From assembly GCA_024695475.1 (NCBI GenBank), contig JAILIC010000060.1, positions 1 to 48,888 on the forward strand: a DNA stretch of 48,888 nucleotides. The letters run 5' to 3'. Origin of the DNA: Treponema sp. Lineage in GTDB: Bacteria; Spirochaetota; Spirochaetia; Treponematales; Treponemataceae. Position 1 is the stretch's first letter; each line of letters starts with the position of its first letter. The translations under genes and the position numbers were made by a program. This document shows positions 37,988 through 48,888 of the stretch, piece after piece. The notes under the pieces were generated by a model. That model saw nothing but the letters and a program-made list of their open reading frames with translations, had not been told where the DNA came from and made no database searches.

Positions 37988-38785
37988 ATGAATAGTCTTC
38001 ATATTGAAATCCAAGATAAGTTGGGTAAGGTACTTGCTGCTGAAGAAGGAAAAGATAATGTTGTCTTAGTGTATGATACAGAATATCTTGATGGTGATAC
38101 CATACATCTTATGGCGCCTTCTGGCTCTTTTTTAGTGATACAGCTTGATGATGTACTTGAGCCTGCTTATGTCTATAGTAAGGAGTCGGAGTATACCTTT
38201 GTCATTCCATTTGGCGAAAAACGGTACTCCTATAATCCTAAGTGTTTTGTTGGTTCCATTCATGTGTTAAAGGCGCGATTTGCTACTCAGGCCGAAATGA
38301 CTATGCATAAAAATCTTGCCTATAATAGCCATGATACAGCTTATAATACTGCATGTTATCCTCATGCTTCGGCTAATATTGAGACTCGTGGAGAGTCGGT
38401 ATTTGCAGCTCGAAATGCTATTGATGGTAATATTGCAAACAAAAGTCATGGTAACTGGCCTTATGAATCATGGGGAATTAATCAGGATCCTCAAGCGGAG
38501 TTCTATTTAGATTTTGGCAGAGCGGTATGTATTGATACGCTTGTTTTGGTGACACGAGCTGATTTTCCGCATGACAATTATTGGAAACTGGCAGAAGTCG
38601 TGTTTTCAACTGGCGAAACAATGACACTTACCATGCAAAAGAGTACTTTGCCTCATAGCTGGCATTTTGAGCCAAAAAAAGTGACAGGGTTAACACTGCG
38701 TCATTTGGTAAAAGATGAGACTGATCCATCCCCATTTCCAGCTCTTACGCAGATAGCAGTATATGGTACGGATATACTGCTATAG
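37988..38785 (+). CDS. Cytoplasmic discoidin-like (F5/8 type C) carbohydrate-binding protein
   Basis: 265 residues with no signal peptide; GGAGG lies 6 nt before the ATG. The C-terminal half (about 115-260) has an F5/8 type C-like layout: ARNAIDGNIANKSHGNWPYE, then SWGINQDPQAEFYLDFGRAV, then CIDTLVLVTRADFP and a final strand ITQIAVYGTD. The N-terminal half (about 1-100) is a separate beta-rich domain with GDTIHLMAPSGSFLVIQLDD. It lies beside the beta-glucuronidase gene (convergent) and the uronate locus, so sugar or oligosaccharide binding inside the cell is plausible. No catalytic residues are recognised. Confidence 0.75.
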   Translation: MNSLHIEIQDKLGKVLAAEEGKDNVVLVYDTEYLDGDTIHLMAPSGSFLVIQLDDVLEPAYVYSKESEYTFVIPFGEKRYSYNPKCFVGSIHVLKARFATQAEMTMHKNLAYNSHDTAYNTACYPHASANIETRGESVFAARNAIDGNIANKSHGNWPYESWGINQDPQAEFYLDFGRAVCIDTLVLVTRADFPHDNYWKLAEVVFSTGETMTLTMQKSTLPHSWHFEPKKVTGLTLRHLVKDETDPSPFPALTQIAVYGTDILL

Positions 38786-38868: not shown

Positions 38869-40668
38869 TTACTCTGCTTGTGTTCCTCGATTTTTATAAA
38901 ATGCCTGCAGTACGTAGAACGCAAGCTTTTTATGAGTTTTATCAGCAGAGAGCAATCCCTTGGTATTGTATCCGTGCTGATACTTACTCATGCGGCGGGG
39001 AGTACGAAAATCAAAAAGAATCCACGGTGTAGTACCTTTTATATACGGTATGGTCCCAATTAATGCTGTCTGTTTTTTATAGACGTATTCCTGATATGTT
39101 TCTGTTCCTTTTTCGTCTATAGTACCGTATGCCCCGCTTAAAGCATCTGCACCAAACTCGGTGATAATGACAGGTTTTGTTGGCTGGGAGTTTTGCATAA
39201 GGGTATTAAGTTTTTGGAAGTCCGGATTGTACCAACCGTAGTATTCGTTTAATCCGATGACATCTAGGTACTGTTCCAATCGGTCCGCAATTTTGAGGTT
39301 TACCGTATCTACGAGACATGCTGCAGAGACAAGTCTGCAAGGGTCTTGTGTATGTGCGTGCTGAGCGAGACGACTCATGAATGATAGTCGGGAATCAGTG
39401 TCGGGATTTTCATTACCGACAGACCAGATGATGACACTGCAACGATTTTTATCCCTTGTGATGAGTTCTGATAATTGGTTTTGTGCATCGGCATAGGTAT
39501 CTGGGTTATCAAAATCGAGCAACCAGTATACGGGTATTTCTTCCCATAACAGGAGACCCATTTTATCAGCGAGTTTCGCAGCAAGCTCGTTGTGAGGGTA
39601 GTGTGCCAAGCGCATAAAATTACAGTTGAGCTCTTTTGCCAAGGTAAAATTAGCAATGATTTCTTCTTTGTCGGCAGCTTTACCATGCGGTACGCTTTCT
39701 TCATGTGCGCTGATACCGTTGAGATAGATGGCTTTTCCATTTAAGTAGATGTTATTACCTTTTACTTCAATGCTTCTAAAGCCTATTTCATCATGAACGG
39801 TGTCAGAGTCAGCGGTAACAGTAACATCATAGAGTTTTGGATTTTCGGGGCTCCATAATGAGAGGTCTGCCTTGCAGGTAAATGTGCCACTCTTCAGGTT
39901 ATCGTCTTTTTTTTCGAGTGGTACTTGTATGGTGAGGGATAATTCTGGTATGGCAACCTGGGCTGTGGCTATGGATGTATTACCGGCAACGGTTACCGAG
40001 CCTTCGAGTATGTTTGTACTACCTTTTTGTAAGCGGATTGTAAAATCCTGTATGTAACTCTCTGGGAGACGGATAAGTTCTACAGAGCGAGTGATACCTC
40101 CATAATTAAACCAGTCAGTATTTATTGAAGGTACTTGTGTTGTGCGACGTGTATTGTCTGCTACGATGATGATGCGATTTTGTTCTTGAATGTATGGGGT
40201 AACATCAATATAAAATGGCGTTGAACCGCCCTTGTGATACCCAATGAACTTTTTATTTAAGAACACTTTTGCGCTGTAATAAACTGCACCACATTTTAAG
40301 ATGACCTTTTTTTCGCCATGGTTTTTATAGATAAAAGTACGTGTATATACGCCTGGTCCTTCATAGTAAAAGTATTCCTTTTTTTGTGTATTCCAGACTC
40401 CAGGAACTTGTATGGTATCCCATCCGTCAAAATCGTAATCGACAGGAAGTGATAAACCATTTTCGTCAAAGTATTTTTCTTCGTACCACTTGCCCCGCAG
40501 ACAGTAGTCGTATTGGTCTGTAGAAAAGTGCCACTGTCCGTCCAAAGATTCTTTGGTGCGTCCACAATCATATATCATATCTTTGCAGGTATATTCGGGA
40601 GAAAGGTACTGTTTATAATATGTATCGTTATGGATATCTTCCGTATAGTTTTTAATAATCTGTGCCAT
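38869..40668 (-). CDS. GH2 beta-glucuronidase
   Basis: 599 residues, the length of E. coli GUS, no signal peptide. Three GH2 domains: sugar-binding jelly roll (residues 30-200), immunoglobulin-like (200-290) and TIM barrel. Acid/base Glu in IIWSVGNENPDTD (about E420), nucleophile Glu in VIITEFGADALSG (about E504), and NFMRLAHYPHNE in the barrel. The NTK of GYNTKGLLSADKTHKK (about N568/K570) matches the N-x-K motif that binds the glucuronate carboxylate and separates GUS from GH2 galactosidases. It removes terminal glucuronate in the cytoplasm. Divergent from the ABC importer/GH88/lyase operon. Confidence 0.9.
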   Translation of the reverse strand: MAQIIKNYTEDIHNDTYYKQYLSPEYTCKDMIYDCGRTKESLDGQWHFSTDQYDYCLRGKWYEEKYFDENGLSLPVDYDFDGWDTIQVPGVWNTQKKEYFYYEGPGVYTRTFIYKNHGEKKVILKCGAVYYSAKVFLNKKFIGYHKGGSTPFYIDVTPYIQEQNRIIIVADNTRRTTQVPSINTDWFNYGGITRSVELIRLPESYIQDFTIRLQKGSTNILEGSVTVAGNTSIATAQVAIPELSLTIQVPLEKKDDNLKSGTFTCKADLSLWSPENPKLYDVTVTADSDTVHDEIGFRSIEVKGNNIYLNGKAIYLNGISAHEESVPHGKAADKEEIIANFTLAKELNCNFMRLAHYPHNELAAKLADKMGLLLWEEIPVYWLLDFDNPDTYADAQNQLSELITRDKNRCSVIIWSVGNENPDTDSRLSFMSRLAQHAHTQDPCRLVSAACLVDTVNLKIADRLEQYLDVIGLNEYYGWYNPDFQKLNTLMQNSQPTKPVIITEFGADALSGAYGTIDEKGTETYQEYVYKKQTALIGTIPYIKGTTPWILFDFRTPRRMSKYQHGYNTKGLLSADKTHKKLAFYVLQAFYKNRGTQAE

Positions 40669-40694
40669 GGTTCCTAGACTAAATGTGAAAAATC

Positions 40695-40783
40695 AATCTG
40701 TCCATATAAAATCTGTATGTTTTTTATTCGTTTTTTATCGATGCATCGGACAATCTATAAAAATTAGATGATTTTGACAGATT
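40695..40783. promoter_or_regulatory. Divergent regulatory region with inverted AATCTGTC/GACAGATT
   Basis: AATCTGTC (40695-40702) and GACAGATT (40776-40783) are reverse complements, one on each side of the 185-bp gap. Between them lie the perfect palindrome CGATGCATCG (40739-40748) and AATCTA/TAGAT arms. The right copy overlaps TTGACA (40774-40779). This suits one regulator acting on both directions, but no -10 box fits well. Confidence 0.4.
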
Positions 40784-40853
40784 CTCGTATACCTTTTTCG
40801 CAAGAATGCTCCTACGATATATATAGTTATCTAAGTATTAGGAGGAATACATA

Positions 40854-42131
40854 ATGAAAAAGACGATTAGTGCTATTGCTGCACTTACGCTTGCTGCTGG
40901 AATGTTATTTGCTGGTGGAAAAAAGGAAGCAGATACTTCTTCAGGACCTGTTACCTTAAAATGGGCTTTGTGGGATTATACCCAGACAGTCTATTATAAG
41001 CCACTTATCGAAGCATTTGAAGCTACTCATCCAAATATCAAAATCGAGCCACTTGATTTAGGTTCTAGTGACTATCAGACTATGCTGAGTACTCAGCTGA
41101 CTGGTGGAGACTCTTCAATTGATGTTGTAACTGTAAAGGATATTCCTGGTTATGCAACATTGGTAAAAGCTGGTCAGTTGGTTGACTTGACTCCATTGAT
41201 GAAGAAAAACAATATTAATCCTGCAGATTATAATGGTGCTGCAGAACAGATGACCGTAGACGGCAAACTGTATGAAATGCCATTCCGCAGTGACTTCCGT
41301 GTTGTTTTCTATAATAAGGATTTGTTCGACAAAGCTGGTGTTCCATATCCAAAAAATGATTGGACATGGGATGAATATGATGCACTTGCACGTAAGATGA
41401 CAAGTGGTTCTGGTGCTTCAAAAGTTTATGGCTCTCACTATCACACTTGGAGAAGTATGGTACAGTGTCAGGCTATTCTTGATGGTCACACCGTTGTTCA
41501 GCCACCATATGATTTTATGAAGCCATACTATGAAAGAGTATTGAAACAGCAAAAAGAGGGTATTTGTATGGATTATGCTCAGCTTAAAACAACAAGTACT
41601 CATTACTCTGGTGTATTCTACAATAACAGTGTTGCTATGATGGAAATGGGCTCATGGTTTATTTCTACTTTGGGCAGCCAGATTGCTCAGGGTAAGACTG
41701 AGGTTAAAAACTGGGGTATTGTAAAACTTCCTCATGCTGCTGGTGTTAAAGCTGGAACAACTGTAGGTACTTTGACAGGTGTTGGTATCAGCAGTGCTTC
41801 AAAGCATCAGAAAGAATCTGCAGAATTTGTTGCATTCCTTTGTGGTGAAAAGGGTGCTGAAGTTTTGGCTAATACTGGAAACTATCCTGCTTTGATGAAT
41901 TCAAAGATGGCTGAGATCCTTGCTGCTCGTCCAGGATTCCCACAGGATGCAAACAGTAAGGCTGCTTTGCAGACAGAAAAGATTTGTCTTGAAATTGCAT
42001 ACAGCGACAAGGCTCCACAGATTGATGCTGCTTTGAACCGCGCACATGATAATATCATGACATTGAATACTACTCTTGATGAAGGTCTTGCACAGGCTGA
42101 TAAAGAAGTAAAAGGCATTTTGGCCAGATAA
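40854..42131 (+). CDS. ABC sugar-binding protein, uronate/glycosaminoglycan locus
   Basis: 425 residues, family 1 extracellular solute-binding protein. Signal peptide MKKTISAIAALTLAAGMLFA, then GGKKEAD, with Gly where a lipobox would have Cys. Core motifs are VTLKWALWDYTQTVYYKPLI, YNKDLFDKAGVPYPKNDWTW and AMMEMGSWFISTLG. AGGAGG lies upstream. It heads an operon with two permeases, a GH88 hydrolase and two heparinase-family lyases, so the ligand is probably a uronate-containing oligosaccharide. A strong hairpin follows the gene. Confidence 0.92.
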   Translation: MKKTISAIAALTLAAGMLFAGGKKEADTSSGPVTLKWALWDYTQTVYYKPLIEAFEATHPNIKIEPLDLGSSDYQTMLSTQLTGGDSSIDVVTVKDIPGYATLVKAGQLVDLTPLMKKNNINPADYNGAAEQMTVDGKLYEMPFRSDFRVVFYNKDLFDKAGVPYPKNDWTWDEYDALARKMTSGSGASKVYGSHYHTWRSMVQCQAILDGHTVVQPPYDFMKPYYERVLKQQKEGICMDYAQLKTTSTHYSGVFYNNSVAMMEMGSWFISTLGSQIAQGKTEVKNWGIVKLPHAAGVKAGTTVGTLTGVGISSASKHQKESAEFVAFLCGEKGAEVLANTGNYPALMNSKMAEILAARPGFPQDANSKAALQTEKICLEIAYSDKAPQIDAALNRAHDNIMTLNTTLDEGLAQADKEVKGILAR

Positions 42132-42151
42132 TAGGTTGTGATGATAAGAAT

Positions 42152-42187
42152 GGGATGCCGACAAGTACGTATGATAGTTGGCATCCC
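42152..42187 (+). terminator. Strong intra-operon hairpin between binding-protein and permease genes
   Basis: GGGATGCCGAC (42152-42162) pairs with GTTGGCATCCC (42177-42187) through 11 bp including one G-U, around a 14-nt loop, followed by TTCTTTATA. It lies 20 nt after the binding-protein stop. The position suggests partial termination or 3'-end protection so that binding protein exceeds permease. Confidence 0.75.
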
Positions 42188-42219
42188 TTCTTTATACTTA
42201 AGAAATACGAGAGGTAAGC

Positions 42220-43131
42220 ATGACTGCTGATATTTCTACCCGATCATTAAAGCAACGAAAAATAAAAGATACACTTGTCGCTTATAGTTTTATTATGCCT
42301 AATTTTTTAGGTTTTGCTGTATTTACCTTAGGACCGATTCTTTTTGCAGTCTATCTTGCTTTTACCCAATGGAATGGTTCGGGTGCAATAAAATTTATTG
42401 GATTTAAAAACTTTATTAATTTAACTCAGGATACGCTCTTTTTGACTGCTTTAAAAAATACGTTAGTATACTGTATTGCAACAGTACCGTTAACGGTTAT
42501 TTGTTCTTTGTTTTTGGCAGTTATGTTAAATCAAAAAATCTTTGCACGTAATTTTTTCCGCACGGTTAACTTTTTTCCTTATGTTGCTTCATTAGTTGCA
42601 GTTGCTGTTGTATGGAATATGATATTTAATCCGGCAAAAGGTCCTGTTAATCAGTTATTGATGATGCTCGGTGTAAATGAAGAAAGTTTGCCTCGGTGGG
42701 CAGCTGATAAAGACTGGGCAATGTTTACGGTAATTCTCTTTAGTGTCTGGAAAAACTCTGGTTACTATATGATTATTTATCTTGCCGGCTTACAGGGAAT
42801 CAGTGCTCAATTGTATGAGGCAGCTACATTGGATGGTTGTAATAAATGGCAACAATTTAGATATGTTACATTACCACAGTTGAGACCTACAACATTCTTT
42901 GTCATCGTTATGTTGACTATTCAAAGTTTTAAAGTATATGACCAGATTTATATGATAACACAGGGAGGCCCGGGCTCATCAACCTTGGTCTTAGTATATC
43001 ATATTTATAATACTGCATTTATTGACTGGGATTTGGGATATGCCAGTGCTGTAGCTATGGTATTATTCCTGCTTGTTCTTATTGTTACTCTTATTCAGTT
43101 TAGAGGAGAAAAGAATTATGCAAACGCCTAG
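42220..43131 (+). CDS. ABC sugar permease (MalF type), uronate locus
   Basis: 303 residues, six transmembrane segments, GAGAGG ribosome site. EAA loop EAATLDGCNKWQQFRYVTLP, followed by the family-typical MITQGGPGSSTLVLVYHIY. It forms the channel with the next gene, whose start lies 14 nt inside this one. Confidence 0.93.
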   Translation: MTADISTRSLKQRKIKDTLVAYSFIMPNFLGFAVFTLGPILFAVYLAFTQWNGSGAIKFIGFKNFINLTQDTLFLTALKNTLVYCIATVPLTVICSLFLAVMLNQKIFARNFFRTVNFFPYVASLVAVAVVWNMIFNPAKGPVNQLLMMLGVNEESLPRWAADKDWAMFTVILFSVWKNSGYYMIIYLAGLQGISAQLYEAATLDGCNKWQQFRYVTLPQLRPTTFFVIVMLTIQSFKVYDQIYMITQGGPGSSTLVLVYHIYNTAFIDWDLGYASAVAMVLFLLVLIVTLIQFRGEKNYANA

Positions 43132-43972
43132 TCTTATGCGCTCAAAAACAACACTTACCAATATCTGGAAAGGCTTTGTCTATGCGGTTTTGGTTCTTTC
43201 TGCATTAATGGCTTTGGTACCTTTCTTATGGATGCTTTCTTCTTCTTTAAAATTAGATAAGGATGTTTTTAAGTTTCCTATAGAGTGGATTCCAAAACAT
43301 CCGCGTTGGCAGAACTATAAAGAAATATGGCAGACAATTCCTTTGGGATTATTTATATGCAATACAGCAAAGTTGACGCTTATTGTTACCTTTTTGCAAA
43401 TGCTTACATCCAGTTTTGCTGCTTATGCTTTTGCAAAACTGCACTTTAAAGGGCGTAATACTATGTTCTTGTGCTATGTTGCCACAATCGCCATGCCGTG
43501 GCAGGTGTATATGGTGCCTCAGTTTATTATGATGAGAGGGTTCCATCTTAATAATACACATCTTGCAATCATTTGTTTGCAGGCATTTACGGCGTTTGGT
43601 GTATTTTTAATGAGACAATTTTATCAGTCGATTCCTGATGAGTTGTGTGAGGCTGCACGTATTGACGGTATGAATGAGTATCAGATTTGGGCTCGTATCA
43701 TGGTTCCGCTGTCAAAACCGGCATTGTCAACATTGTTAATTTTTGCTTTTGTTGGAACGTGGAATGACTTTTTAGGACCGATGATTTATCTCAATCGTTT
43801 GGAACTGAAAACAATACAGATTGGTCTTCGTATGTTCATCACCCAGTACTCTTCAGAGTATGGTTTGATTATGGCTGCTAGTGTTGTTGTATTAATACCA
43901 GTGCTTATAGTATTCCTTTCATTACAAAAGTTTTTTGTTGAAGGCATTGCTTCTACTGGTATCAAGGGGTGA
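43118..43972 (+). CDS. ABC sugar permease (MalG type), uronate locus
   Basis: 284 residues from ATG 43118, chosen because AGAGGAG lies 7 nt upstream; a longer frame from 43073 lies inside the preceding gene. EAA loop EAARIDGMNEYQIWARIMVP, C-terminus FVEGIASTGIKG. Overlaps the first permease by 14 nt. As in the amino-sugar importer, no ATPase gene accompanies it. Confidence 0.93.
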   Translation: MQTPSLMRSKTTLTNIWKGFVYAVLVLSALMALVPFLWMLSSSLKLDKDVFKFPIEWIPKHPRWQNYKEIWQTIPLGLFICNTAKLTLIVTFLQMLTSSFAAYAFAKLHFKGRNTMFLCYVATIAMPWQVYMVPQFIMMRGFHLNNTHLAIICLQAFTAFGVFLMRQFYQSIPDELCEAARIDGMNEYQIWARIMVPLSKPALSTLLIFAFVGTWNDFLGPMIYLNRLELKTIQIGLRMFITQYSSEYGLIMAASVVVLIPVLIVFLSLQKFFVEGIASTGIKG

Positions 43973-43982
43973 TGGAACGCAT

Positions 43983-45158
43983 ATGATACATCGTTTTTCA
44001 AACAAGGCAGAAATTTCTGATACTGAGTTACAACAAGCTGTTGCCATCGCCTGTGCTCAAATCGATAAGAATCGTGCTGATTTTACCCATGCATGTCAAA
44101 ACCATTCAAGTGTGCATAATCGCTATGCACCTTGCGAAAATGATCAGTGGACCTGTGGATTTTGGCCTGGTGAGCTATGGTTGGCGTATGAAATGACGGG
44201 CAGTGCTGGATATAAAGAATCTGCTTCTGTTTTGGTTGAAAGTTTTTTACATCGTATTGAAAACAAAATTGCTGTTGATCATCATGATATGGGGTTTTTA
44301 TATTCCCCTTCATGTGTGGCGGCTTATATGCTTACTGGAAATGAGCATGCAAAAAAGGCTGCGTTGTTGGCGGCATTACAGCTTGCTTCACGATTTCAGC
44401 AAAAAGGAGCGTTTATACAGGCATGGGGTGAAATGGGAGCAAAAGACAACTATCGTTATATTATAGATTGTCTCCTTAATGTTCCTTTGCTCTACTGGGC
44501 TGCCATTCAAGATCCCAAGCATACGGAGTATCTTCGTCATATTGCTGATTCTCATATAAAAACATGTTTGAGTAATTCTTTTAGGGAGGATTACTCGACA
44601 TATCATACGTTTTTTATGGATCCAGAAACGGGATTGCCCGATCATGGTGCTACTTGTCAGGGATATAAAGATGATTCTTCTTGGGCTCGTGGTCAGGCCT
44701 GGGCAGTGTATGGTATTGCGCTTGCCTATAAATATGTACCGGATAAAAAATATATTACGTTATTTGAAAATGTAGTGTCGTATTTTTTACGGCGACTACC
44801 ACAAGATCTGGTACCTTATTGGGATTTAATCTTTTCCGATGGTAGCAATGAGCCGCGAGATTCCTCCTCCGCGGCCATTGTTGCCTGCGGATTACTTGAA
44901 ATGTCAAAGTATGTGCCAGAAGACACTGGTAGTGTGTATACGGGAATAGCACGCCAATTGCTAAAATCATTATATGATTCATATGCGGTTAAAGACTATG
45001 CTGTTTCAAATGGATTATTACTCCATGGAACGTATAGTAAAAAGTCTCCTTATAACACCTGTACTCCAGAGGGAGTAGATGAGTGTGTCAGTTGGGGAGA
45101 CTACTTTTATATGGAAGCATTGGTCCGCCTGTCTAAAAACTGGGAGCCGTATTGGTAA
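43983..45158 (+). CDS. GH88 unsaturated glucuronyl hydrolase
   Basis: 391 residues from ATG 43983 (GGGG upstream; 10 nt after the permease stop), no signal peptide. Alpha/alpha-barrel hydrolase of the UGL family: NDQWTCGFWPGELWLAYEM, the two catalytic-type Asp in DHHDMGFLY (about D102) and YIIDCLLN (about D162), DHGATCQGYKDDSSWARGQA and EPRDSSSAAIVACGLLEM. The enzyme removes the 4,5-unsaturated glucuronate left at the non-reducing end by polysaccharide lyases. The two lyase-family genes that follow directly would produce its substrate. Confidence 0.93.
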   Translation: MIHRFSNKAEISDTELQQAVAIACAQIDKNRADFTHACQNHSSVHNRYAPCENDQWTCGFWPGELWLAYEMTGSAGYKESASVLVESFLHRIENKIAVDHHDMGFLYSPSCVAAYMLTGNEHAKKAALLAALQLASRFQQKGAFIQAWGEMGAKDNYRYIIDCLLNVPLLYWAAIQDPKHTEYLRHIADSHIKTCLSNSFREDYSTYHTFFMDPETGLPDHGATCQGYKDDSSWARGQAWAVYGIALAYKYVPDKKYITLFENVVSYFLRRLPQDLVPYWDLIFSDGSNEPRDSSSAAIVACGLLEMSKYVPEDTGSVYTGIARQLLKSLYDSYAVKDYAVSNGLLLHGTYSKKSPYNTCTPEGVDECVSWGDYFYMEALVRLSKNWEPYW

Positions 45159-45197
45159 ACGTTTTTAGCGACATGATGTAAAAAGAGTTGTGTATAC

Positions 45198-47258
45198 ATG
45201 AATGATCAGTGTAATAAAAAAGCAGTTTTCTTTTTTTTACTCGAAGAACGGGAACAGATAGCAAGTTATGTACGCGAGTACTATCCCGACGAAGTTGCTG
45301 AAGTTATACGAAAAGCAGATGAGACGTGTTGTTCTCAGTTTGTTTTTGATTGCCGCTGGGATTTGGAAAGTTGTTTTGAACCAGTCAGTTTTTCTGCTCT
45401 AGACGGAAAACTGGCTATACAATGGTTGTATCAACCAGCAGATGATCCTGAATGGACGTATTCCCTTAATCGTATGCGTTATTGGATTTGTCTGGGGCAA
45501 GCATATGTGTTGACTCATGATGAAAAATATGCGCGGACTTTTGTTGCACAATTGATTGACTGGACTAAAAAAGTAAAGCGTTCTGATCCAGCATGTGCTC
45601 CAGCCTGGCGTTCTATAGAAGCTGGCTTTCGTCTGGAATATTGGATAAAGGCTTGGCAATATTTTATTGGTAGTCCGAGTATTACAGATGAAGTAGTACA
45701 GATTTTTTGCACTAGTATACGTGAACATGCGGAACATGTTATTGCTGCATATAACCATTTTAATGTAATCAGTAACTGGGGGGTGCTTGCTAATCATGGC
45801 TTATGTATGGCAGGCATTTTTTTGGCTGATGGACAAAAGTATATCCAGCTTGCACTCGAACGGCTTGAAAAGGAACTGCTGACACAAGTATATCGTGATG
45901 GTATGCAATGGGAACAAAGTCCTATGTATCATAACGAAGTACTCCATGATTTTTTAGATGTGCTTGTTCTTGCAAAACGTAATGGTATAGCGCTTCCACC
46001 CGTATTCTTTGAAAAAGTACGGGCGATGTGTCTTGCTGATTGCTTTTTGCAAAAACCAGACCATCATCAAATTATGATGGGCGATAGTGACGACTTAGAT
46101 ATAAGCTATAATATTGCACGAGGAGCATATGTCTTTGACGATCCCCAATTAAAGTATTGTACGACATCACGTTTTGATTTTGATACTATCTGGGACACCG
46201 GTTATGAGGCTTCACAGAGATATCAAGGTATGCAAAGTCAGAAAATGCCGACCTCTTTATTTATGCAGGAAAGTGGAAATGTATGTATCCGATCCGACTG
46301 GAAAGAGGATGCTGCGTATATACATTTCCATTGTGGTACGCTTGGAGCTGGTCATGGACACTCAGATCAGTTGCATATTGATGTTAGTGCTGATGGTGAA
46401 GATGTTCTGTGTGATTCCGGTCGCTATACGTATGTATCAAAGCAGGCTCGCTACGACTTTAAAAACCCCTGTGCTCATAATACGATCGTGGTAGATCATC
46501 GTAATTATTGTGTGTGGAGCGATAGCTGGACTGCACATTCTTTGTGTCGGGCAATCAATCAAAAATGTGTGTCATATAAGGATTACGTGTATGGTGAGGG
46601 TGCTCATACCGGCTATTTGTTTACAGAGTCTGGTAAGATGAGTGATAACGGGGTACTGCTTAATCGCCGGTTGGTATATATAAAACCTGATATTTTACTT
46701 GTACTTGATGAAGCATTGAGTACAGGTATACATGTCTATCAGCAGTTTTTTCATTTTAGTGATACAGGAAACGTTATTAGGCAAACTATATCCGGTGATG
46801 ATGAAAAAGATCCTGTATGGTATGTATTTCAGGGACAAAAAACGCGAGCTGTTTTAGCTTTTGCTGATTGTTCTGCTGATGGGTATAAAACGAGTTTGAC
46901 TCGTACACAGATATCGCGACATTACAATCAAGCAGTTACACAGGATACCGTATGTGTTGATTACATTCATAAAGGTTTTCTCTGTATGGCTAGTTGCCTC
47001 TTTTTACATACAGATGCTGATACCTGTCTTGCTGTAAAGAAGATCCCGGTGACATCTGCAATTACAGGCGCTCCTTTTCGAGATGATCAAGTTGAAGCAT
47101 GGAATATTATGAAAGATACACGTACTTATACAGTTGTGATTGCACATAGGGAGTTTGCTGCCCCTACAGATATGTTTATGGCCGATGGGTGTGTTGGCTT
47201 TGCAAATGCCATGATTTTTGATCGTACTGCAGGGACGTCCGAAGTATTAGCGAGGTAA
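45198..47258 (+). CDS. Heparinase II/III-family polysaccharide lyase 1
   Basis: 686 residues, no signal peptide, so cytoplasmic. Alpha/alpha toroid in the N-terminal half (about 80-310), then an antiparallel beta-sandwich. Likely catalytic residues: NHG in GVLANHGLCMAG (N199/H200), Tyr in WEQSPMYHNEVLHDF (about Y244), His in GAGHGHSDQLHIDV (about H386), and CAHNTIVVD, as in heparinase II/III and alginate-type lyases. It would beta-eliminate uronate-containing oligosaccharides to unsaturated sugars for GH88. The ribosome site is weak. 39 nt after GH88; overlaps the next gene by 1 nt. Confidence 0.9.
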   Translation: MNDQCNKKAVFFFLLEEREQIASYVREYYPDEVAEVIRKADETCCSQFVFDCRWDLESCFEPVSFSALDGKLAIQWLYQPADDPEWTYSLNRMRYWICLGQAYVLTHDEKYARTFVAQLIDWTKKVKRSDPACAPAWRSIEAGFRLEYWIKAWQYFIGSPSITDEVVQIFCTSIREHAEHVIAAYNHFNVISNWGVLANHGLCMAGIFLADGQKYIQLALERLEKELLTQVYRDGMQWEQSPMYHNEVLHDFLDVLVLAKRNGIALPPVFFEKVRAMCLADCFLQKPDHHQIMMGDSDDLDISYNIARGAYVFDDPQLKYCTTSRFDFDTIWDTGYEASQRYQGMQSQKMPTSLFMQESGNVCIRSDWKEDAAYIHFHCGTLGAGHGHSDQLHIDVSADGEDVLCDSGRYTYVSKQARYDFKNPCAHNTIVVDHRNYCVWSDSWTAHSLCRAINQKCVSYKDYVYGEGAHTGYLFTESGKMSDNGVLLNRRLVYIKPDILLVLDEALSTGIHVYQQFFHFSDTGNVIRQTISGDDEKDPVWYVFQGQKTRAVLAFADCSADGYKTSLTRTQISRHYNQAVTQDTVCVDYIHKGFLCMASCLFLHTDADTCLAVKKIPVTSAITGAPFRDDQVEAWNIMKDTRTYTVVIAHREFAAPTDMFMADGCVGFANAMIFDRTAGTSEVLAR

Positions 47259-48888
47259 TGACTATGGGTATGGTATCGTCAGTGTTTTCAAAGCTAACGG
47301 ATCACTATAATCAGTTTGTTCCCTGTGCTCCAGCTACTGACAGAAATGTTTGGACTTCTCTTGATCCAGATATGTGTCAAGCAATTATACAGGAAGCTCA
47401 AAAGTATATTGGACAAGTTCCCCAACCATTACCGCTGTCTTTATATATGGATTTTTATAAAACGGGTAATCGGGTGCATTTTGAAACGGTCTATTTTAAT
47501 CGTCGAGTGATTTTAAACATATTGGTATTGGCTGAATGTATAGAATACAAGCAACGGTTTATGTACTGCATTTGTGATTATCTGTTTGCTTTGTGTGAAG
47601 AAAGTGGCTGGCAGTTACCTGCTCATAATACCTATGTACGTGATACTCCTCAACAACCTGTTCCTGATGTGACTCGTCCAGTGTTGGATTTATTTGCCTG
47701 TGAGTCTGGTGCGCAGATTGCCATGGTCTATTATCTGCTCCATGACGAATTGTTTGCGGTAGATCCAGCTTTGATTAAACGTATAGAGTACGAGTTATTG
47801 CAACGTATTATACATCCCTATCTTACAGATCATTTCTGGTGGATGGGGTATGAACATCAGGCGACTAACAATTGGACAGTTTGGTGTACACAAAATGTTT
47901 TGATTACTTCTTTTTTATTGAGAGAATGTATTGGTACTAAAAAAATACATCGCATTGTCCGTCGAGCTTGTTTTAGCATTGACAGATTTTTATCTGAGTA
48001 TGGTGATGACGGCTGTTGTGATGAGGGGCCTCAGTATTATAGGCATGCAGGATTATGTTTAGGAACCGCTTTACAATTATTGCAGCAGGTGACTGGGGGT
48101 ATGTATACTGCGGTACTTGAACATCCTAAGATACGCAATATAGCTGAGTATATCGTACATGTGCATGCGCAAGGTAAGTACTACCTTAATTTTGCTGACA
48201 GTGCCGCTGTTGCTGGTGCTGCAGGCATACGCGAATATGTGCTTGGAAAAATGATAGGTAGCGATGTATTGATGCAGTTTGCTGCTTTTGATTGGGTACA
48301 TGAATATAAACCGCATTGGGCTCTCCGACCATCTGATAGTAATGAGGGTATTAATTTGTTTTATTTGGTGCAGGAGTTATGTACTGCCCAGGAAGTTATG
48401 CAGTATGTAGCAACTCATCCAGTACCGCTTGCAATATCAAAGGCATCTGATTGGGCATATAAAAGTGCCGGTGTGTATATCAGCCGTGATGCTCATTATT
48501 GTCTTGGAATGAAAGCTGGAGATAATGATGACAGTCATAATCATAATGATGTGGGGAGCTTTATTTTGTATAAAGATGGCAACCCATTTATTATTGATGT
48601 TGGGGTAGAGACGTATACAAAAAAGACGTTTTCGCCTGATAGGTATACAATATGGACGATGCAATCATTGTATCATAACGTAACCAATATAGATGGGACG
48701 ATGCAGGCTGCAGGAGCACAGTATAAGGCTCAAAGGGTACGGTATGACGTGCAAAAAGACGTGACTACCTTATCTATGGAACTCTCTCATGCCTATCCTG
48801 CAGACAGTATGCTAGAGTCTTATCGTCGTACAATTAGTTTTTATAAAGAAAAACGTATTATTGTTACTGATGTGATACGACAAAAAGC
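47258..48888 (+). CDS. Heparinase II/III-family polysaccharide lyase 2 (3' end outside window)
   Basis: 543 residues visible from ATG 47258, which shares a base with the upstream stop (TAATG); ATG 47264 is an alternative. The frame stays open to the window end. No signal peptide. It differs from lyase 1 but follows the same plan: FWWMGYEHQATNNWTVWCTQ (about residues 200-215), EGPQYYRHAG (Y260/Y261) and SHNHNDVGSFILYKDG (H427/H429) are the Asn/His, Tyr and His positions of heparinase II-like enzymes. PFIIDVGVETYTKKTF continues the beta-sandwich. Probably cleaves a different linkage or chain length from its neighbour. Confidence 0.88.
   Translation, partial: MTMGMVSSVFSKLTDHYNQFVPCAPATDRNVWTSLDPDMCQAIIQEAQKYIGQVPQPLPLSLYMDFYKTGNRVHFETVYFNRRVILNILVLAECIEYKQRFMYCICDYLFALCEESGWQLPAHNTYVRDTPQQPVPDVTRPVLDLFACESGAQIAMVYYLLHDELFAVDPALIKRIEYELLQRIIHPYLTDHFWWMGYEHQATNNWTVWCTQNVLITSFLLRECIGTKKIHRIVRRACFSIDRFLSEYGDDGCCDEGPQYYRHAGLCLGTALQLLQQVTGGMYTAVLEHPKIRNIAEYIVHVHAQGKYYLNFADSAAVAGAAGIREYVLGKMIGSDVLMQFAAFDWVHEYKPHWALRPSDSNEGINLFYLVQELCTAQEVMQYVATHPVPLAISKASDWAYKSAGVYISRDAHYCLGMKAGDNDDSHNHNDVGSFILYKDGNPFIIDVGVETYTKKTFSPDRYTIWTMQSLYHNVTNIDGTMQAAGAQYKAQRVRYDVQKDVTTLSMELSHAYPADSMLESYRRTISFYKEKRIIVTDVIRQK

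Follow-up and report, generated by a model that had tools for sequence, protein, structure and literature searches.

We analyzed a 48,888-bp stretch of Treponema sp. DNA (the window), which is the entire contig JAILIC010000060.1 (C73) of a 3.17-Mb genome that is 95.8% complete. At the end of the window lies a locus predicted to import and degrade uronate-containing oligosaccharides. From position 37988 its gene order is a 265-aa protein, a GH2 gene on the opposite strand, an ATP-binding cassette (ABC) substrate-binding protein (SBP), permeases A and B, GH88, a PL12-like lyase and a PL33 lyase (Table 1). The plus-strand operon genes are tightly spaced or overlapping. The initial annotation described a GH2 enzyme with an N-x-K motif facing an operon of ABC importer, GH88 and two lyases, and the open reading frame positions and Pfam families agree with it. 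It placed the start of the locus at 38869; we move this to 37988, because the 265-aa protein is conserved as a partner of PL33. Since the window ends with the contig, the PL33 gene is truncated and the downstream sequence cannot be read. The locus contains a lyase, a glycoside hydrolase and a transporter, which are components of a Gram-positive-type glycosaminoglycan (GAG) polysaccharide utilization locus (gpPUL).

Table 1. Features of the predicted uronate-oligosaccharide locus, in window coordinates
Feature	Position	Strand	Basis
Discoidin-like protein, 265 aa	37988..38785	+	Orthologues beside PL33; F5_F8_type_C/DUF7402 matches of orthologues
GH2 beta-uronidase (glucuronidase and/or galacturonidase), predicted cytoplasmic	38869..40668	-	6ncy match, N-x-K
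Divergent intergenic region GH2/operon, 185 bp	40669..40853	none	RBS-like AGGAGG ahead of SBP start
ABC substrate-binding protein (SBP), signal peptide, no lipobox Cys	40854..42131	+	SBP_bac_1
ABC permease A	42220..43131	+	BPD_transp_1; 68% to rhizobial permease
ABC permease B	43118..43972	+	BPD_transp_1; 14-bp overlap with permease A; 78-80% to rhizobial permease
GH88 unsaturated glucuronyl hydrolase, predicted cytoplasmic	43983..45158	+	UGL matches, both active-site Asp
PL12-like heparinase III-type lyase, predicted cytoplasmic	45198..47258	+	Hepar_II_III_N + C; HepC match
PL33 lyase, predicted cytoplasmic, 3′ end missing	47258..48886	+	BcPL33HA/BtPL33HA matches; start overlaps preceding stop by 1 bp

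The GH2 protein has all three GH2 Pfam domains, and its best solved relative is the beta-glucuronidase 6ncy (712 bits over 589 aa). The catalytic Glu and the N-x-K carboxylate motif are both present. The latter reads YNTKG at 567 and aligns with YNRKG of 6ncy; NENP and ITEFG are found at 419 and 502. The galacturonidase 7vqm also scores high, with AqGalA at 451 bits, and the protein falls below the NCBIfam PRK10150 cut-off. It is therefore classed as a predicted cytoplasmic beta-uronidase, a glucuronidase and/or galacturonidase.

The GH88 protein scores 378 bits with the unsaturated glucuronyl hydrolase (UGL) of Streptococcus agalactiae and 267 bits with that of Bacillus, and its active-site Asp pair (in DHHD and IIDCLL) is conserved and aligned with UGL. 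A TTG start at 43935 was rejected as an over-extension because it overlaps permease B. Contigs C33, C58 and C159 of the same genome carry three further members of the GH88 Pfam family, which may be GH105-type (L044, L045 and L046; L numbers designate the loci compared). Their scores with the Pfam GH88 model are far above that of the locus GH88, and the C159 gene is downstream of genes for two paired ABC permeases and a putative binding protein.

The initial annotation spoke of two heparinase II/III-type lyases. Both exist, but they belong to different families, one being PL12-like (Hepar_II_III_N and Hepar_II_III_C) and the other PL33 (Hepar_II_III_C). The PL12-like lyase matches PF16889 with 174 bits and PF07940 with 69 bits. 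Compared with solved and characterized lyases, it scores 98 bits to Pedobacter HepC (4mmh) versus 23 bits to AlgL17. Its catalytic Asn, Tyr and His (N193, Y244 and H386) align with those of HepC and are invariant in 19 sequences. HepC is also the top Foldseek match of its AlphaFold2 model (pLDDT 86). A second structural aligner tied PL12 with the PL17 and PL39 alginate lyases (Z 26-28), so the fold alone gives no substrate. With the NCBIfam HepC equivalog models the score is 134.7 bits against cut-offs of 600-700 bits; the same function as HepC is therefore not implied. L013, L014 and L016 each contain two diverged PL12-like paralogues, of which one belongs to the operon and the other lies opposite to it, at 28-30% and 37-40% identity to the lyase of the window.

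The PL33 lyase scores 294 and 287 bits to BcPL33HA (Bacteroides cellulosilyticus) and BtPL33HA (B. thetaiotaomicron), with about 520 aa aligned. The equivalents of the reference catalytic residues N238, Y291 and H444 (PMC11848413) are N205, Y260 and H427, and those of the conserved Y470 and F475 are Y453 and F458. Characterized PL33 enzymes cut hyaluronan, heparosan, chondroitin sulfate, gellan and glucuronan, the last two being substrates of PL33_2 members; subfamilies 1 and 2 have Trp and Val, respectively, at the -1 subsite (PMC11848413). Across the GH2, GH88, PL12-like and PL33 proteins, all active-site residues tested are present. A PF07940 search of the genome found no other heparinase-type lyase.

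The location of the enzymes was judged by a crude test and not by SignalP: the most hydrophobic 12-residue segment within the first 35 residues was scored with a cut-off of 2.0. In the window, GH2, GH88 and both lyases have no signal peptide and the SBP has one. Signal-like N-termini were found in 0/28 GH88, 0/41 PL12-like and 0/21 PL33 orthologues (0/90 in total) versus 24/28 SBPs. The lack of export signals in GH88 and the two lyases is thus a conserved property and not an accident of one genome, and it supports the cytoplasmic location that had been proposed. Import first and depolymerization inside are well supported by the sequence. The proposal that long acidic oligosaccharides are imported holds for this order of events, but "long" is overstated, as an importer of the SBP_bac_1 class suggests short ones. 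Among solved structures, the SBP is closest to 4rk2 (488 bits), which we take to be a Rhizobium etli protein; all others score below 90 bits. A UgpC-type ATPase gene is found on contig C3, with no recognized homologue of the permeases or SBP of this locus beside it.

The 265-aa protein has no signal peptide. Its orthologues directly adjoin PL33 in the spirochaete loci L013, L014, L016, L075 and L084, and it is 42-48% identical to orthologues of Rhizobium and Agrobacterium. These orthologues match F5_F8_type_C/DUF7402 in Pfam, with the window protein itself at just E=0.19. Its model is of low confidence (pLDDT 61) with weak discoidin structure matches, so we restrict the discoidin-like assignment to the C-terminal half. 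In the cytoplasm it probably binds glycans as a partner of PL33. This partnership is conserved from spirochaetes to Rhizobiaceae, and the protein family is apparently uncharacterized.

Genes for the downstream uronate routes are found elsewhere in the genome. KduI (425 bits, over the cut-off) and a KduD-like short-chain dehydrogenase/reductase are adjacent on C18, beside genes judged by eye to be of a tricarboxylate-type transporter. KdgK, KdgA, UxuA and a fructuronate-reductase-like gene lie together on C49. In locus L019, KduI and KduD are directly downstream of the PL12-like lyase. The UgpC ATPase and these routes may also have a part in the use of other sugars.

The initial annotation saw neither a sulfatase nor an endo-lyase in the window. 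The first of these absences extends to the genome: a PF00884 search that detected strong sulfatases in other genomes found no catabolic one here. The sole two matches are membrane proteins fused to 60KD_IMP, amid apparent surface-glycan synthesis genes. These YidC-like fusions to a sulfatase/phosphodiesterase-like part are about 900 aa long and are encoded on contig C45 (L036, 4710-7391 and 12183-14915); long-frame matches resembling them also occur in other carrier genomes. For endo-lyases, the absence holds for PL8, which was found neither here nor in 11 other carriers, with Clostridium tarantellae detected as the positive control.

The closest named relatives of the PL12-like lyase come from metagenome-assembled genomes of Spirochaetaceae and Treponemataceae from rumen and horse faeces. 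L006/L068 and L007/L069 keep the order SBP-permA-permB-GH88-PL12-PL33, and many loci of spirochaetes, clostridia and Calditrichales have closely similar arrangements. Carriage in spirochaetes is sporadic: PL12-like genes were present in 21 of 393 sampled genomes, and an earlier search found them in 3 of 59 close-relative genomes, that of the window included. Another arrangement of the same theme is seen in Lachnospiraceae and relatives (L020, L023 and L024). There the PL12-like lyase is followed by a protein of about 1000 aa, assigned as GH95-type by Pfam in L020 only, and then by GH88, and the ABC binding proteins are different ones.

In most relatives a sensor kinase and an AraC-type response regulator adjoin the locus; L007 has none nearby. 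As the window contains no transcription regulator gene, such a pair may lie beyond the contig end. A promoter scan of the wider region around the divergent intergenic stretch gave promoter-like matches no more often than chance.

An orthologous uptake cluster, which includes a YesL/DUF624 protein, is found on large Rhizobium and Agrobacterium vitis plasmids. Each of the three plasmids inspected (L047-L049) groups orthologues of the SBP, permeases, GH88, PL33 and discoidin-like protein in a single cluster. Matches to SBP, GH88 and PL33 each cover 126 plasmid records (110 Rhizobium, 9 Agrobacterium, 5 Neorhizobium and 2 Allorhizobium). Identities are 51-54% for SBP and 68-80% for the permeases (both computed in L047 and L048 only), 61-62% for GH88 and 42-45% for PL33. 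The PL12-like enzyme was not found on the rhizobial plasmids. Where the spirochaete has GH2, the rhizobial cluster has a DUF2264 protein homologous to the glucuronate dehydratases 9o4u and 9nwf; dehydratases of this kind prime chains for GH88 (PMC12269599). A literature search on rhizobial GH88 returned nothing direct.

Taken from its gene content, the locus is probably a catabolic operon for short, unsulfated acidic oligosaccharides that contain beta-D-glucuronate. The SBP would capture the oligosaccharide in the periplasm, and the two permeases, powered by the shared UgpC/MalK-type ATPase encoded on C3, would import the chain uncut. In the cytoplasm the PL33 and PL12-like lyases would split it by beta-elimination, with the discoidin-like protein probably holding or presenting chains to PL33. 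GH88 would then take off the unsaturated uronate, and GH2 would trim saturated beta-uronate from the non-reducing ends, a role probably filled by the DUF2264 protein in the rhizobial version. Unsaturated uronate would next be processed by KduI, the KduD-like reductase, KdgK and KdgA; UxuA and the remaining enzymes of its branch would handle saturated glucuronate. The likely substrates are hyaluronan, heparosan or chondroitin fragments in a gut, and for a herbivore-gut spirochaete the likeliest food would be such fragments freed by other bacteria. Bacterial or plant glucuronate glycans are possible substrates.

The initial annotation took the substrate to be a GAG. This is not established, given the rhizobial set and the activity of PL33 enzymes on gellan and glucuronan. 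The same uptake and cutting mechanism may instead serve a non-GAG glucuronate polymer met in both gut and rhizosphere, such as a bacterial exopolysaccharide or capsule, a gellan-like polymer or a plant fragment, a reading we hold possible though not favoured. The plasmid clusters speak for it, as do the PL33 scores (457-464 bits versus rhizobial enzymes and, from a different program, 287 bits versus BT4410), the presumably rhizobial origin of the best solved SBP relative, and the cleavage of gellan and glucuronan by PL33_2 members (PMC11848413). However, the spirochaete locus also has a PL12-like enzyme, which the rhizobial plasmids lack and whose sequence is closest to those of heparan sulfate lyases, and the GH88 of the locus is closer to the streptococcal, GAG-active UGL than to that of Bacillus. 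Because carriers of the rhizobial version live on plants, the shared core is probably adapted to a glucuronate motif and not to animal tissue as such, and the PL12-like enzyme may be a spirochaete and clostridial adaptation to GlcA-GlcNAc chains.

Four points weigh against the favoured reading of the locus. The presence of the kit minus PL12 in plant-associated Rhizobiaceae may mean that its core specificity is a non-GAG glucuronate glycan. GH2 was found in just one other close locus (L007 = L069, 67% identity) and, given this rarity, may not be integral. The entry of the characterized GAG-binding SBP Smon0123 is not among the 60 listed solved-structure matches of the SBP (E<=1e-5), and no direct comparison of the two was made. 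Lyase families outside the search, such as PL6, PL13 and PL29, could supply an extracellular lyase. The cluster could also represent an unnamed cross-phylum, import-first glucuronate-glycan system of gut spirochaetes and plant-associated Rhizobiaceae, with cytoplasmic PL33, its dedicated cytoplasmic discoidin-like partner and a common non-animal target, in which GH2 and DUF2264 are interchangeable for saturated uronate ends.

Use of a sulfated GAG (heparan or chondroitin sulfate), as the "heparinase" annotation suggests, would fit the PL12-like lyase and the similar layout of an in-silico heparin gpPUL of Roseburia (PMC9067506), but it is improbable because no catabolic sulfatase was found in the 95.8% complete genome. 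Very improbable is an alginate-type locus with lyases for mannuronate/guluronate chains. The structural tie with PL17 and PL39 would allow it, as the fold comparison cannot separate them from PL12, but we rejected it on the PL12 versus AlgL17 scores. Moreover, Foldseek ranked HepC first, the second lyase is PL33, and alginate use is not known to involve GH88 or a GH2 uronidase.

A catabolic operon for unsulfated glucuronate oligosaccharides would place their use in uncultured gut spirochaetes and predicts life on fragments released by other microbes. As rhizobial plasmids carry this cluster too, use of host GAGs should not be deduced from "heparinase II/III" or GH88 annotations. The link to PL33 also gives a testable hint at the function of the discoidin-like family.

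The initial annotation regarded the strategy as scarcely described for spirochaetes. Our literature search on GAG use by spirochaetes found nothing direct, which agrees with it, but equivalents exist in other bacteria. The Rhizobium/Agrobacterium cluster shares the SBP, permeases, GH88, PL33 and discoidin-like protein; unlike the locus here, it has its own UgpC, YesL/DUF624 and DUF2264 and is without PL12 and GH2. We know of no established name for it. Bacteroides GAG loci (BT4410, BT4657) share the lyase families PL33 and PL12 and the GH88 chemistry, but they rely on surface and periplasmic breakdown, SusC/D and sulfatases (PMC9067506). In Streptobacillus, ABC import with a cytoplasmic UGL has been shown (PMC5430744). 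The S. moniliformis cluster Smon0115-0128 resembles the locus here in its SBP-dependent ABC importer for unsaturated uronate oligosaccharides, its GH88 UGL in the cytoplasm, its PL12 gene and the KduI/KduD/KdgK/KdgA route (PMC5430744). In contrast to the locus here, it has a sulfatase and PL8 lyases proposed to act outside, it imports disaccharides pre-cut there, and its SBP was not detected as a relative of ours among the solved-structure matches listed. For Roseburia hominis, a cluster of PL12, unsaturated (delta) glycoside hydrolase, two-component system and ABC genes was reported in silico (PMC9067506). This heparin gpPUL of strain A2-183 shares the PL12 lyase, the unsaturated glycoside hydrolase and the ABC genes (three in Roseburia) (PMC9067506), and it has a two-component regulator. 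It differs in that PL33, the discoidin-like protein and GH2 are unmentioned, the host is a Firmicute and the function is an in-silico prediction. The import-first layout is thus not unique, and it resembles the predicted heparin operons of gut Firmicutes.

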